Assembly: GCF_002803845.1 (NCBI RefSeq)
Contig: NZ_CP024985.1
Coordinates: forward strand, 6,955,501-7,019,500
Source of the DNA: Streptomyces lavendulae subsp. lavendulae
GTDB taxonomy: Bacteria; Actinomycetota; Actinomycetes; Streptomycetales; Streptomycetaceae
DNA length: 64,000 bases
Direction: 5' to 3'
Numbering within the stretch: position 1 is the first letter of the stretch; the number at the start of each line of letters is the position of its first letter. The position numbers and the translations under genes were made by a program. Under the pieces are notes generated by a model. It worked only from the letters and a program-made list of their open reading frames with translations. It was not told the DNA's origin and did not search any database. Of the stretch, positions 24,501 through 29,668 are shown piece after piece.

Positions 24501-24523
24501 TTATTGCGATCTCTTTGCAATAA
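24501..24523. promoter_or_regulatory. Nur (nickel uptake regulator) box upstream of nikA
   Basis: TTATTGC-N9-GCAATAA is a perfect 7-bp-arm inverted repeat. Inside it, 24504-24520 reads TTGCGA-TCTCT-TTGCAA, one mismatch from the Streptomyces Nur consensus tTGCaa-N5-ttGCAA. Nur is a Fur-family repressor that, with nickel bound, shuts off nickel importers. The site ends 30 bp before the nikA start, where it would block the promoter. Confidence 0.8.
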
Positions 24524-24553
24524 CAGATGACCGTAAACAGGGATGTGCACAGC

Positions 24554-26143
24554 ATGACGGCCCGGACAGTACGGGGAGCGGCCGGAGCCGCGCTCGCCAC
24601 CGCACTCATCACGGGCGTGACGGCCTGCGCGAACCCCTCGGGGCCGGCCCGGCCGGCCGATTCCGCCGTGGTCGGCATCGCGACCGAGCCGCAGACCCTC
24701 AGCCCGCTGCTGGGCTACGGCAAGGACGGCAACTCCAAGATCTTCGACGGGCTGCTCACCCACGACGCGGACATGAAGCTCAGGCCCGCCCTCGCCGAGG
24801 CCCTGCCCGAGGTCTCCGCCGACGGCCGCACGTACACGTACCGGCTGCGCCAGGGCGTGAAGTTCAGCGACGGGGAGCCCTTCACGGCCGCCGACGTCGA
24901 GTTCACCTACCGGACCATCCTGGACCCGGCGACGAACAACGCCTCCAAGACCGAACTCGACGCGATCGAGAGCGTCACCGCCCAGGGCCCGGACCGGGTC
25001 GTCTTCACCCTGAAGTACCCCTACGCCCCCTTCGCCGAACGCACCGTCCTGCCCATCGCCCCGCAGCACGTCGCCGGGAAGCAGGACGTCAACGGCGGCG
25101 GGTTCGGCACCCGGCCCGTCGGCACCGGACCGTACGTGCTCACCGGCTGGTCCAAGGGCGAGAAGATCTCCTTCAGGGCCAACCCGTCCTACTGGGGCGG
25201 CGAGCCCGCCGTGAAGAAGTTCACGATGGCCGTGATCAAGGACGACGACGTGCGCGCCACCCGGCTGCGCTCGGGCGAACTGGACGCCGCGGTCCTGCCC
25301 CCGAACCTGGCCGAGGGCTTCGCCGGGGACCGCACGCGCAGGACGTTCGCCGCGAAGACCTTCGACTACCGCAACGTCACCCTCCCGACGCAGCACCCCG
25401 TCACCGGCGACCCGGCCGTCCGGCAGGCCCTGGACGTCGCCGTCGACCGCGCGACCATGGTCGACAAGCTCCTGGACGGCGCGGGCAAGGCCGCCTACGG
25501 CCCGGTGCCCACGGACAGCCCCTGGTTCACGCCCGGCACGGAACGCGCGTACGACCTCGGCCGGGCGAAGCGGATCCTCGACGACGCCGGCTGGAAGCCC
25601 GGCGAGGACGGCGTCCGCGTCAAGGACGGGGTCCGCGCATCCTTCCCGCTCTGGTACACCACCGGCGACAAGATCCGCCAGGACCACGCGCTGGCCTTCG
25701 CCTCCGACGCCCGCAAGGCGGGCGTCGAGGTCACGACCGAGGCCGGGACCTGGGAGGTCATCGAACCCCGGATGAAGACCGACGCCGTCCTCGCCGGCGG
25801 CGGATCCCCGGCCGACCCCGACTTCGACCAGTACCTGCTGCTGACCTCCTCCCTCGCGGGCGACGGCTTCAACAACATGGCCCGGTACGACAACCCGGTG
25901 GTCGACCGGGCGCTGACCGACGCCCGCAGGAGCGGCGACCCGGCCGTCCGCAAGGCCGCGTACGACACCGTGCAGCGCGAGCTGGTCAAGAACCCCGGCT
26001 ACGTCTTCCTCACCCACATCGACCACCTCTACGTCGTGAACGACCGGTGGGACGGCCCCGGCACGCAGGTCGAACCGCACGACCACGGCCTCGGCTCCGG
26101 CCCCTGGTGGAACGTCGAGCACTGGAAGCCCAAGCAGAAGTGA
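24554..26143 (+). CDS. nikA: Nickel-type ABC importer, substrate-binding lipoprotein (NikA-like)
   Basis: 529-residue cluster-C (SBP_bac_5) binding protein. Signal peptide with lipobox VTAC (Cys25) for attachment outside the membrane; then TEPQTLSPLLGY and the family's conserved RPALAEALPEV, YRLRQGVKFSDGEPFTAADV and GTGPY segments. Start ATG 24554 chosen because it follows CAGGGATG and gives a proper signal sequence; 24527 lies against the operator. SBP_bac_5 proteins bind peptides or nickel; nickel is inferred here from the Nur box. First gene of a five-gene overlapping operon. Confidence 0.85.
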   Translation: MTARTVRGAAGAALATALITGVTACANPSGPARPADSAVVGIATEPQTLSPLLGYGKDGNSKIFDGLLTHDADMKLRPALAEALPEVSADGRTYTYRLRQGVKFSDGEPFTAADVEFTYRTILDPATNNASKTELDAIESVTAQGPDRVVFTLKYPYAPFAERTVLPIAPQHVAGKQDVNGGGFGTRPVGTGPYVLTGWSKGEKISFRANPSYWGGEPAVKKFTMAVIKDDDVRATRLRSGELDAAVLPPNLAEGFAGDRTRRTFAAKTFDYRNVTLPTQHPVTGDPAVRQALDVAVDRATMVDKLLDGAGKAAYGPVPTDSPWFTPGTERAYDLGRAKRILDDAGWKPGEDGVRVKDGVRASFPLWYTTGDKIRQDHALAFASDARKAGVEVTTEAGTWEVIEPRMKTDAVLAGGGSPADPDFDQYLLLTSSLAGDGFNNMARYDNPVVDRALTDARRSGDPAVRKAAYDTVQRELVKNPGYVFLTHIDHLYVVNDRWDGPGTQVEPHDHGLGSGPWWNVEHWKPKQK

Positions 26144-27132
26144 CCCGCCGCCTCCCCTGGGGGCCGATGGCGCGCATGGCGGGGCGGCGGACCCTGTTCG
26201 CCGCCCCCGTCCTGCTCCTCGTCACCTTCGGCGTCTTCGCCGTCGCCGCCCTGTCCCCCTTCGACCCCGTCAAGGCCTACGCCGGCACCGCGGGCCTGAC
26301 CGCATCCCAGGCCGAACTCGACCAGCTGCGCGCCAACCTCGGCGTGGACCGGCCGTTCACCGCGCGCTGGTGGGACTGGCTCACCTCGGCGCTCACCGGA
26401 GACCTCGGCATCTCCGCCGTCCTGCGCCAGCCCGTCGCCGACGTCATCGCCGGACGCGTGGGCTGGTCGGCCATGCTCGCCTGTTGCGCCTTCGTCGCGG
26501 CCCTGCTGCCGGCCACGGTCCTCGGCGTGCTCGCCGCCCGCCGCCGGGGCGGCCTCCTCGACCGCGCCGCCACCGCCCTCGCCTACGTCCTGGAGGCGGC
26601 CCCCGCCTTCTGGCTCGGACTGCTGGCCGTCTGGCTGTTCGCGGTCCGCCTCGGCGCACTGCCGTCCGGCGGACTCACCGACGCCGCCGCCGACACGGTC
26701 ACCGCCGGGCAGGTCGCCCCGCACCTGGTGCTGCCCGTACTGGTCCTCGCCCTCTCCCAACTGCCGTGGTTCTACCTCTACGTGCGCCAGGGCGTGGCCG
26801 ACGCGCTGGAGGAGGACCCCGTACGCGGGGCCCGCGCGCGGGGCCTGTCCGAGCGACGGGTCCTGCTGGGCCACGCTCTGCGCTCCGGGATGCTCCCCGT
26901 GCTCACCCTCATCGGCTCCCGGGTGCCGGAGCTGATCACCGGAGCCCTGCTGGTGGAGACCGTGTTCAGCTGGCCCGGCATCGCCGCCGCCACCGTTCAG
27001 GCGGCCACCTCGGTGGACTTCCCGCTGCTGGCCGCCCTGACCGTGCTGGCCACCGCCGCGGTGCTGGCCGGGAACCTGCTGTCCGACCTGCTGTACGGAC
27101 TGGCGGACCCGAGGGTGGGCTTCGATGGCTGA
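26140..27132 (+). CDS. nikB: Nickel-type ABC importer permease (NikB-like)
   Basis: 330-residue inner-membrane permease of the DppB/NikB type. A first helix (LFAAPVLLLVTFGVFAVAAL) is followed by a long extracytoplasmic loop with the family's ANLGVDRPF and GDLGIS, five more helices and the EAA coupling loop (DPVRGARARGLSERRVLLGHALRSG). GTG start overlaps nikA by 4 bp (GTGA). It pairs with NikC to form the membrane channel. Confidence 0.87.
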   Translation: MTRRLPWGPMARMAGRRTLFAAPVLLLVTFGVFAVAALSPFDPVKAYAGTAGLTASQAELDQLRANLGVDRPFTARWWDWLTSALTGDLGISAVLRQPVADVIAGRVGWSAMLACCAFVAALLPATVLGVLAARRRGGLLDRAATALAYVLEAAPAFWLGLLAVWLFAVRLGALPSGGLTDAAADTVTAGQVAPHLVLPVLVLALSQLPWFYLYVRQGVADALEEDPVRGARARGLSERRVLLGHALRSGMLPVLTLIGSRVPELITGALLVETVFSWPGIAAATVQAATSVDFPLLAALTVLATAAVLAGNLLSDLLYGLADPRVGFDG

Positions 27133-28042
27133 CCTCCCTGACCGGTCTGAGACCACCGGCCTTCCCGACGCCCCGGCGGCTCCCGTGCGGTGGCGCCGCC
27201 ACGGGCCCGACCGCCGCTCCACACACGCCCTGCGGCTGCGCGCCTCGGCCGCCGTACTGGCCCTGCTCGCCCTGGCCGTCCTGCTGGTGCCCCCGCTGGC
27301 CCACCTCGACCAGCAGGCCGTCGACCTCTCCGCCAAGCTGCTGCCGCCATCCTGGCAGCACCCCTTCGGCACCGACGACGTGGGCCGCGACCTGCTGCTG
27401 CGCTGCGTCTACGGGCTGCGCGTCTCCCTGCTGGTCGGCCTGGTGGCGGCGCTCGCCGCGACCGTGGTCGGCACGGCGGTGGGCGCGGCCGCCGGGGCGC
27501 TGGGCGGCTGGACCGACCGGCTCGTCATGCGCGGCGTCGACGCGCTCTCCTCGGTCCCGCACCTGCTGCTCGGCATCTTCGTCGTGGCCCTGTTCCGGCC
27601 CGGCGTCTGGCCCGTGGTGGTGTCCGTGGCGCTGACCCACTGGCTGTCCACCGCCCGGATCGTGCGCGCCGAGGTGCTCTCCCTGCGCGGGCGCCCGTAC
27701 GTGGACGCGGCCGTCTCCGGCGGCGCCTCGCGGTGGCGGGTCGCCGTACGCCACCTGGTGCCCGGGGTGCTGCCCCGGGCCGGGCTGGCCGCGGTGCTGA
27801 TGATCCCGCACGCCATGTGGCACGAGTCCGCCCTCTCCTTCCTCGGCCTCGGCCTGCCCGCCCGCCAGGCCAGCCTCGGCACCCTCGTCCAGGACGCGCG
27901 CGGCTCCCTCCTGGCCGGCGACTGGTGGCCCACCCTCTTCCCCGGGCTGCTGCTCATCGTCCCCACCCTGGCCCTCGCCGGGCTCGCCGGCGCCTGGCGC
28001 GACCGGCTCGACCCCCGGCGCCGTTCGGAGCTGACCCTGTGA
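27125..28042 (+). CDS. nikC: Nickel-type ABC importer permease (NikC-like)
   Basis: 305-residue second permease of DppC/NikC type. N-terminal helix, the typical HPFGTDDVGRDLLLRCVYGLR segment reaching into the first transport helix, and an EAA loop (YVDAAVSGGASRWRVAVRHL). The ATG start overlaps nikB by 8 bp. The C-terminal end overlaps nikD by 4 bp. Confidence 0.87.
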   Translation: MADLPDRSETTGLPDAPAAPVRWRRHGPDRRSTHALRLRASAAVLALLALAVLLVPPLAHLDQQAVDLSAKLLPPSWQHPFGTDDVGRDLLLRCVYGLRVSLLVGLVAALAATVVGTAVGAAAGALGGWTDRLVMRGVDALSSVPHLLLGIFVVALFRPGVWPVVVSVALTHWLSTARIVRAEVLSLRGRPYVDAAVSGGASRWRVAVRHLVPGVLPRAGLAAVLMIPHAMWHESALSFLGLGLPARQASLGTLVQDARGSLLAGDWWPTLFPGLLLIVPTLALAGLAGAWRDRLDPRRRSELTL

Positions 28043-29016
28043 CCCCGCACCCCGCACCGCCGCCCGCCGGGCAGGCACCCCCCGTCCTGCGCGTCGCGGG
28101 ACTCCACGTCCGCTTCCGGATGCGCGGCGGCCGCCACGTCGAGGCCGTCACCGACGCGGCCTTCGAACTGGGCTCCGGCAGCTGCCTCGCCCTCGTCGGC
28201 GAGAGCGGCTGCGGCAAGTCCGTCCTCGCCTCCGCGCTCCTCGGCCTGCTCCCCGGCAACGCCGAGACCGCCGGATCGGCCCTGCTCGCCGACGGCCTCG
28301 ACCTGCTCGCCGCCGACGAGCGGACCCTGGCCCGCACCGTCCGCGGCCGACGCGTGGGCCTGGTCCCGCAGAGCCCCGCCGCGCACCTCACCCCGGTGCG
28401 CACCGTCCGCTCCCAGCTCCAGGAGACCGTCCGGGAACTGCTCGCCCCGAAGGGCGGGAAGGCGCGGCTGCGCGCGGCCGGCGAGAGCGCCGCCGCGCGG
28501 GCCGCCTTCCCCGCCGACCACCTCGACCACCACCCCCACGAACTCTCCGGCGGCCTCGCCCAGCGCGCCGCCACCGCGCTCGCGCTCGTCGGGGACGCCC
28601 CCCTGCTCCTCGCCGACGAGCCGACCACCGGCCTCGACCGCGACCTCGTCGACCGCACCGTCGACGAACTGCGCGCCCACACCAGGGACGCCGGCCGGGC
28701 CCTGCTGATGATCACCCACGACCTGGCCGCGGCACGCCGCGTCGCCGACACCGTCGCCGTCATGTACGCGGGCCGGATCGTGGAGATCGCCCCCGCCGAC
28801 GCCTTCTTCGGCGCACCCGGCCCCCGCCACCCCTACGCCCGCGGCCTGCTCGACGCCCTCCCCGAACGCGCCTTCACCCCGATCCCCGGAGCCCCGCCCG
28901 AACTCGGCGACCTGCCGCCCGGCTGCGCCTTCGCCGCCCGCTGCGCCCTCGCCGACGCCACCTGCCGGGCCGTGCGGCCCCCGCTGACCGAAGGGGTGGC
29001 CTGCCACCGTGCTTGA
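28039..29016 (+). CDS. nikD: Nickel-type ABC importer ATPase (NikD-like)
   Basis: 325-residue ATPase of the DppD/NikD type. Walker A GESGCGKS, signature LSGGLAQR (with Leu in place of the usual Gln at the fourth position), Walker B LLLADEPTTGLD and the H-loop ITHDLAAA are present. The C-terminal oligopeptide-transporter extension is complete with GCAFAARCALA and its cysteines, a region that can hold an Fe-S or zinc site in relatives. GTG start overlaps nikC (GTGA). Confidence 0.87.
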   Translation: MTPHPAPPPAGQAPPVLRVAGLHVRFRMRGGRHVEAVTDAAFELGSGSCLALVGESGCGKSVLASALLGLLPGNAETAGSALLADGLDLLAADERTLARTVRGRRVGLVPQSPAAHLTPVRTVRSQLQETVRELLAPKGGKARLRAAGESAAARAAFPADHLDHHPHELSGGLAQRAATALALVGDAPLLLADEPTTGLDRDLVDRTVDELRAHTRDAGRALLMITHDLAAARRVADTVAVMYAGRIVEIAPADAFFGAPGPRHPYARGLLDALPERAFTPIPGAPPELGDLPPGCAFAARCALADATCRAVRPPLTEGVACHRA

Positions 29017-29668
29017 GCTCCAGGGCATCACCGCCGGCTACGACCCCCGCCGCCCCGTCGTGCGCGACGCGCACCTCGCGCTGCGACCCGGCGAGGCCCT
29101 CGGCCTGGTCGGGCCCAGCGGCTGCGGCAAGTCCACCCTGGCCCGGGTCGCCGCCCTGCTGCACCGGCCCGACCGGGGGACGGTGGTCCTCGGCGGCCGC
29201 ACCGTCACCGGCTTCCGGCACCGGGCCCCGCGTTCCCTGCGCACCGAGGTCGGCGTCGTCTTCCAGCAGCCCAGGCTCTCCGCGGACCCCCGCCTGAGGC
29301 TGCGCGACCTCATCGCGGAGCCACTGCGGGCCACGGGTCGCCGGCGTGGGGCGCAGGAGGCCGTCGCCGAGCCGGCCGAGCGGGTCGGCCTCGGCCCGGA
29401 CCTGCTCGCCCGGCGCCCCCACGAGGTCAGCGACGGCCAGCTGCAACGCGCCTGCCTGGCCCGCGCGCTGGTGCTGCGGCCGCGCTGGCTGGTCTGCGAC
29501 GAGATGACCGCGATGCTCGACGCCTCCACCACGGCGGCCCTGGTGGCGGTGGTGGAGGAGTACCGGAGGGAGACGGGGGCCGGTCTGCTCGCGGTGGGAC
29601 ACGATCCGGTGCTGCTCGGCCGGTGGTGCGACCGTACGGTCCACTGGGGCGACATCGCGGACAGTTGA
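29009..29668 (+). CDS. nikE: Nickel-type ABC importer ATPase (NikE-like)
   Basis: 219-residue ATPase of the DppF/NikE type, somewhat shorter than the usual 250 or more. Walker A GPSGCGKST and Walker B WLVCDEMTAMLD are normal, and the H-loop reads VGHD. The ABC signature is SDGQLQR, with Asp for the first Gly of SGGQ. GTG start overlaps nikD by 8 bp. The stop codon lies inside a 16-bp palindrome. With its partner NikD it would form an asymmetric ATPase pair. Confidence 0.83.
   Translation: MLELQGITAGYDPRRPVVRDAHLALRPGEALGLVGPSGCGKSTLARVAALLHRPDRGTVVLGGRTVTGFRHRAPRSLRTEVGVVFQQPRLSADPRLRLRDLIAEPLRATGRRRGAQEAVAEPAERVGLGPDLLARRPHEVSDGQLQRACLARALVLRPRWLVCDEMTAMLDASTTAALVAVVEEYRRETGAGLLAVGHDPVLLGRWCDRTVHWGDIADS

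Follow-up and report, generated by a model that had tools for sequence, protein, structure and literature searches.

Which substrate does a five-gene ABC transporter import when its family allows either peptides or nickel, and can a short inverted repeat in front of its first gene provide the answer? Both the transporter and the repeat lie in the stretch of DNA analysed here (the window; 64,000 nt, C1:6955501-7019500 of an 8.93 Mb genome). We read the repeat at 24501-24523 as an operator for Nur, a member of the Fur family, in the promoter region of nikA, and the operon as a system for nickel uptake, with a probability of about 0.94. From sequence, we infer for this organism that nickel would serve both as co-repressor and as transported metal: nickel-bound Nur dimers would bind the repeat and repress the nikABCDE importer operon, and when nickel is scarce Nur would leave the operator and the importer would be made. 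The sodF gene would be under the same type of operator and would also yield s-SodF, an RNA antisense to sodN, and nickel uptake and the switch between Ni-SOD and Fe-SOD would share one sensor. Nur-controlled nikABCDE is already known from S. coelicolor; the extended set of box targets is less expected.

Table 1 Positions of the putative operator, the operon and further features (positions without a prefix refer to the window)
Feature	Position	Strand	Remarks
Putative Nur-type operator TTATTGCGATCTCTTTGCAATAA	24501..24523	.	Perfect inverted repeat TTATTGC-N9-GCAATAA; PWM score 29.5
Conserved leader between box and nikA	24529..24546	+	Genus consensus around GATCTTCAnnAGGGGTG
nikA-like lipoprotein, SBP_bac_5 substrate-binding protein, 529 aa	24554..26143	+	PF00496, 302 bits
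nikB-like permease, 321 aa	26167..27132	+	After nikA in 80/80 named loci
nikC-like permease, 305 aa	27125..28042	+	Overlaps nikB
nikD-like ATPase, 325 aa, GTG start	28039..29016	+	Overlaps nikC; 79/80 named loci
nikE-like ATPase, 219 aa, GTG start	29009..29668	+	Overlaps nikD; 79/80 named loci
CbiMN fusion gene, then CbiQ, then ATPase gene	L272:1241-3930; C1:4995740 onward		Boxed; ECF-type, labelled cobalt by family models
Second tsaD gene (TsaD2)	L023:1501-2658; C1:7061691 onward		Nur-type box directly upstream
Free-standing sodF_sRNA copy	L299:1504-1643 (G101)		84.6 bits; own Nur-type box
Free-standing sodF_sRNA copy	L306:1414-1521 (G067)		76.3 bits; own Nur-type box
Free-standing sodF_sRNA copy	L296:1198-1521 (G045)		73.3 bits; own Nur-type box
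Free-standing sodF_sRNA copy	L289:1398-1521 (G112)		43.8 bits, slightly under the gathering score (46); own Nur-type box
Cluster of s-SodF, sodF, NiCoT permease, tsaD2 and GNAT genes	L275:2570-6436 (G067)

The operon, its box and their conservation

The operon (24554-29668) is a complete nikABCDE-type ABC set of five overlapping or closely spaced genes, sharing the five-subunit organisation of E. coli NikABCDE. It differs from the E. coli NikR system in that the regulator site is of the Fur-family type and the NikA equivalog cut-off is missed; the NikR operator, given as GTATGA-N16-TCATAC (PMC7055735), had 0 matches at ≤3 mismatches in the window. The best NCBIfam match of the binding protein is TIGR02294 (nickel_nikA), at 180.6 bits against a cut-off of 393, so that the protein is filed only as working like NikA and not as a NikA equivalog, and its matches to the nickel, staphylopine and oligopeptide models all stay below cut-off. 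This agrees with the sequence-only reading, which held that without the box the operon could be called only peptide or nickel transport.

The repeat TTATTGC/GCAATAA that had been described at 24501-24523 is present there, with perfect arms of 7 bp each and a spacer of 9 bp. Nur operators follow the consensus tTGCaa-N5-ttGCAA, and the inner 17-mer TTGCGATCTCTTTGCAA (24504-24520) lies one mismatch from TTGCAA-N5-TTGCAA, likewise as claimed. What lifts the box above chance is its position and conservation, not its repeat geometry or a consensus count. Perfect 7-bp inverted repeats with a 9-bp spacer occur 23 times in the window and are thus not rare. The 17-mer is the only consensus match at ≤3 mismatches in the window, which is no evidence on its own since shuffles average 2.09, and the 8.93 Mb genome contains no further match to the 23-mer at ≤2 mismatches, a count equally devoid of evidence because a reversed control pattern also scores 1. 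Scanning the genome with the 17-bp consensus (≤2 mismatches) gave 17 sites, fewer than the 20 obtained with the reversed pattern; this approach was consequently dropped as evidence, and a PWM and a 27-position model were used instead.

The gap between the box and the start codon of nikA (24554) measures 30 nt; an alternative in-frame ATG lies upstream at 24527. When 57 upstream regions were aligned on the box, information was concentrated in two places, the box itself and the leader behind it (at about +26 to +43), and was near background farther upstream. The leader is probably the ribosome-binding region and/or a promoter element of nikA, judging from this alignment. Consensus scans found no sigma-70 promoter at nikA and no terminator.

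A nikA orthologue, 63-100% identical, was found in 57 of 121 genus genomes (one as a contig-edge fragment) by a search that scored ≤12 candidates per genome. All 57 carry the box upstream of nikA at ≤3 mismatches, and in 44 of them it begins 46-60 nt ahead of the matched start. Dinucleotide shuffles of the same upstream regions gave a mean of 1.15/57 and a maximum of 3 in 20 rounds. The box is also present in 80/80 named loci (taken as the top 80 of 287, possibly overlapping with the 57-genome set), 79 of whose records are titled Streptomyces; the S. coelicolor nik operon, which we take to be SCO6451-6455, is not among them. For the PWM the threshold was 15; the highest score among random 410-nt pieces cut from the window was 1.3. 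Gene order is completely nikABCDE in 79 of the named loci and the remaining one ends at a contig end, while the gene downstream of the operon is kept in 30/80 and the upstream gene in 13/80, some loci being cut short. The box was absent (0/20) upstream of binding-protein paralogues drawn from the upper end of the paralogue list. The compared genomes are related, so these counts are not independent events. Absences of nik, cbiM and tsaD2 are less firm, since only part of the first-look candidates was scored in most genomes; those of Nur, SodF and Ni-SOD are firmer, as all first-look candidates were scored.

Since the box is kept in relatives and matches the box at sodF (see below), nickel is very probably what the five-gene importer takes up. 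The alternative that survives best, a minor possibility, grants the operator and has the transporter import cobalt, a nickel-chelator complex or a peptide in place of free nickel. The family models above leave this choice ambiguous, and a CbiM system is also present in 49 of the 57 nik genomes, so that these genomes have more than one candidate importer. The top two solved relatives of the binding protein are named only family 5 or putative peptide-binding, the third in the profile search is an oligopeptide-binding protein, and the best relatives include AppA, which binds oligopeptides; however, the solved relatives also include the nickel-binding NikA and YntA, control by a nickel sensor fits import of nickel or of a nickel chelate, and chelate import would still be nickel uptake. 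An ambiguous peptide/nickel transporter thereby becomes a testable nickel importer.

Nur, sodF and other candidate regulators

The genome encodes six Fur-family proteins, whose boxes are probably alike in general form. One of these proteins (L003) matches PDB 3eyy at 273.7 bits over 138 residues, against 78.6 for the next best Fur relative, and is identical to it at 120 of 138 aligned residues (87%). Its histidines at 33, 70, 72, 86, 88, 90 and 126 are presumably metal ligands. A gene with a GCV_T domain adjoins this nur homologue, and YgfZ has the GCV_T fold. Structure 3EYY is the Nur of S. coelicolor (PMC7055735), where nur has a YgfZ neighbour (PMC4531530), which the GCV_T-domain neighbour fits.

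The sequence-only reading had proposed to look for the motif at the iron superoxide dismutase gene, and the one Fe-SOD gene detected in the genome indeed has a box, TTGCGCATTAATTGCAA (L008, L082), which starts 53 nt before the start codon. All 30 sodF loci examined have a box; they represent the 30 best of the 106 genomes that gave a match (3 of the 106 being fragments). In S. coelicolor, Nur with nickel represses both sodF and nickel-uptake genes (PMC3919588), and the Nur-repressed nikABCDE of that species goes back to Ahn et al. 2006 (cited via PMC7055735, PMC4186839 and PMC3919588). The present system is like it in its Nur homologue, its boxed five-gene nik-type operon and its boxed sodF, and the site found here is one base off the quoted Nur consensus. 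Taken together, the sodF box, the Nur homologue and the conservation of the box with the operon uphold, as a computational prediction, the earlier proposal that the box marks the operon as nickel uptake.

Could the box instead be occupied by a different Fur-family member of this genome (Zur, FurA or CatR type), with the operon serving another metal or the response to oxidative stress? The number of Fur-family proteins and the likeness of their boxes give this idea some ground, but we regard it as very improbable, because the motif also precedes sodF, which is Nur-repressed in S. coelicolor, and because of the company that the box keeps. A sequence-only model built from 53 boxes and run on 16 chosen genomes at E≤1 returned only nik, cbiM, tsaD2 and sodF in the genome studied (150 of 287 candidates scored). 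The four own boxes (L025, L082, L212, L242) were among the 53 training rows and their recovery was expected; only the absence of further sites is therefore informative, and it is not exhaustive.

The distribution of Nur points in the same direction. Nur (≥74% identity) was found in 118 of the 121 genus genomes, as was Ni-SOD. One genome (G113) has neither, and lacks nik and cbiM as well; it has kept sodF, and the 53-box model reported no site in it at E≤1 (150 of 178 candidates scored), which also argues against another Fur-family protein. Three genomes count against the Nur reading: no Nur was found in G046 (99% complete), yet it has boxes (L083, L216, L260), none was detected in G050 (82% complete), yet it has a box (L064), and G081 has Nur and a boxed nik operon with no Ni-SOD found. 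For the boxes in G046 and G050, an assembly gap or a different regulator is possible.

An ArsR-family nickel regulator like SrnR/SrnQ of S. griseus, where SrnRQ with nickel represses sodF (PMC7055735), is a very improbable occupant of the site given the presence of Nur throughout nearly all of the genus. A functionless chance repeat, favoured by the frequency of such repeats in the window and by a 17-bp consensus lacking genome-wide enrichment, has next to no credibility, being contradicted by the box at one position in 57/57 genomes and 80/80 loci (the best 80 of 287) and in none of the 20 paralogues.

Candidate targets beyond nik and sodF

We consider it likely that Nur also represses (i) cbiMN-Q-O, as a nickel importer, (ii) in at least 32 of the 121 genomes tsaD2, whose product, a copy of a tRNA-modification enzyme, would then be restricted to times of nickel scarcity, and (iii) free-standing s-SodF in some species; in three genomes without a detected sodF, this RNA alone would be under Nur, antisense to sodN, having outlived or separated from its mRNA. 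The box profile is sharp enough for much of the Nur regulon to be read from sequence. With nik and sodF boxes as its training set, the PWM gives high scores (23.3 and 21.9) to two further sites in the genome studied; one lies before cbiM and the other before tsaD2, and neither had been used in training. Of the 17 consensus sites, 15 were PWM-scored, and the 11 besides nik, sodF, cbiM and tsaD2 score ≤14.0. Nur control of cbiM or tsaD was not found reported in open-licence literature, which is weak evidence of novelty.

In the cbiM cluster, the ATPase gene after CbiQ is read as CbiO by its motifs. A cbiM orthologue was found in 109 of 121 genus genomes, and the box precedes it in 30/30 loci (the best 30 of the 109); no cobalamin riboswitch was found before cbiM at gathering thresholds. 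The joint distribution of nik and cbiM gave no support for mutual exclusion (both in 49 genomes, nik only in 8, cbiM only in 60, neither in 4; Fisher p=0.22).

TsaD2 scores 400.2 bits with TIGR03723, above the cut-off of 296.1. The H-x3-H and D motifs of TsaD are its metal ligands, and as TsaD2 has kept them in 30/30, a working spare copy for nickel limitation would be the simplest reading. The gene is present in at least 32 of the 121 genus genomes, two of them with partial copies, and the box precedes it in 29 of 30 loci, the sole unboxed one (L267) belonging to the Nur-less G113. The housekeeping tsaD1 has no box in 12 stretches of 1.4-1.6 kb, where the best score was 3.9. In G105, tsaD2 and sodF lie side by side in divergent orientation, and both are boxed. 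The TsaD family was formerly named gcp. In cluster I Frankia, nur adjoins gcp (PMC4531530), which provides an independent link between Nur and TsaD. Why a paralogue for tRNA t6A synthesis should be placed under nickel limitation is a question that the extended regulon raises.

A NiCoT permease gene may be a further target. In G067, such a gene (PF03824, 339 bits) adjoins sodF and tsaD2 and the group is boxed, and in G117, which is without nik and cbiM, a box precedes a NiCoT gene (PF03824, 340.9 bits, read from Met29). A weak box (E 0.57) in G110 (L304:438-2100) has a ParA/ArsA-type ATPase gene (PF01656, 31.1 bits; PF02374, 25.0 bits) on one side and, judged by eye, what may be a GNAT-like gene on the other. 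The ATPase may be CooC-like, and a nickel-insertion ATPase would fit the box.

Copies of the sodF small RNA under their own box

In the genome studied, the 3'UTR of sodF contains sodF_sRNA (RF02790, 77.6 bits), with 19 nt of perfect antisense to the sodN leader. The RNA was found in 29 of 30 sodF loci; it was not found in L103, nor in the sodF-fragment loci L309 and L310. The 16 chosen genomes contain six model sites outside nik, sodF, cbiM and tsaD2, and four of these lead to sodF_sRNA copies (Table 1). No SodF match was found in G101, G045 or G112 (the last 91% complete, in 810 contigs), and G067 also has a sodF with its own sRNA. The copies lie ≤30 nt from their box in G101, G067 and G112 and about 220 nt from it in G045. 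Each is perfectly antisense to the sodN leader of its own genome, over 19 nt in G101 and G067 and 15 nt in G045 and G112, whereas none of the 300 decoys built with the RNA of G101 exceeds 11 nt. The G101 copy (L299) folds better than all 200 of its shuffles. Three other genomes without intact sodF (G013, G110 and G117, the last with a fragment) had no sRNA-linked site at E≤1.

The control of sodN by Nur and s-SodF was described in S. coelicolor by Kim et al. 2014 (PMC3919588), and the present genome is like that system in having RF02790 after sodF and the 19-nt sodN antisense. It is in some relatives that a difference appears, where a boxed s-SodF is free-standing and, in three cases, sodF itself was not detected. 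Passages of the review PMC9438474 describe s-SodF only as released from sodF mRNA, and PMC3919588 reports a large in-frame deletion in sodF2 of S. bingchenggensis. How a small RNA derived from a 3'UTR becomes an independent gene is a second question raised by the extended regulon. The cluster of G067 includes a GNAT gene behind tsaD2, and in L280, too, tsaD2 is followed by such a gene.
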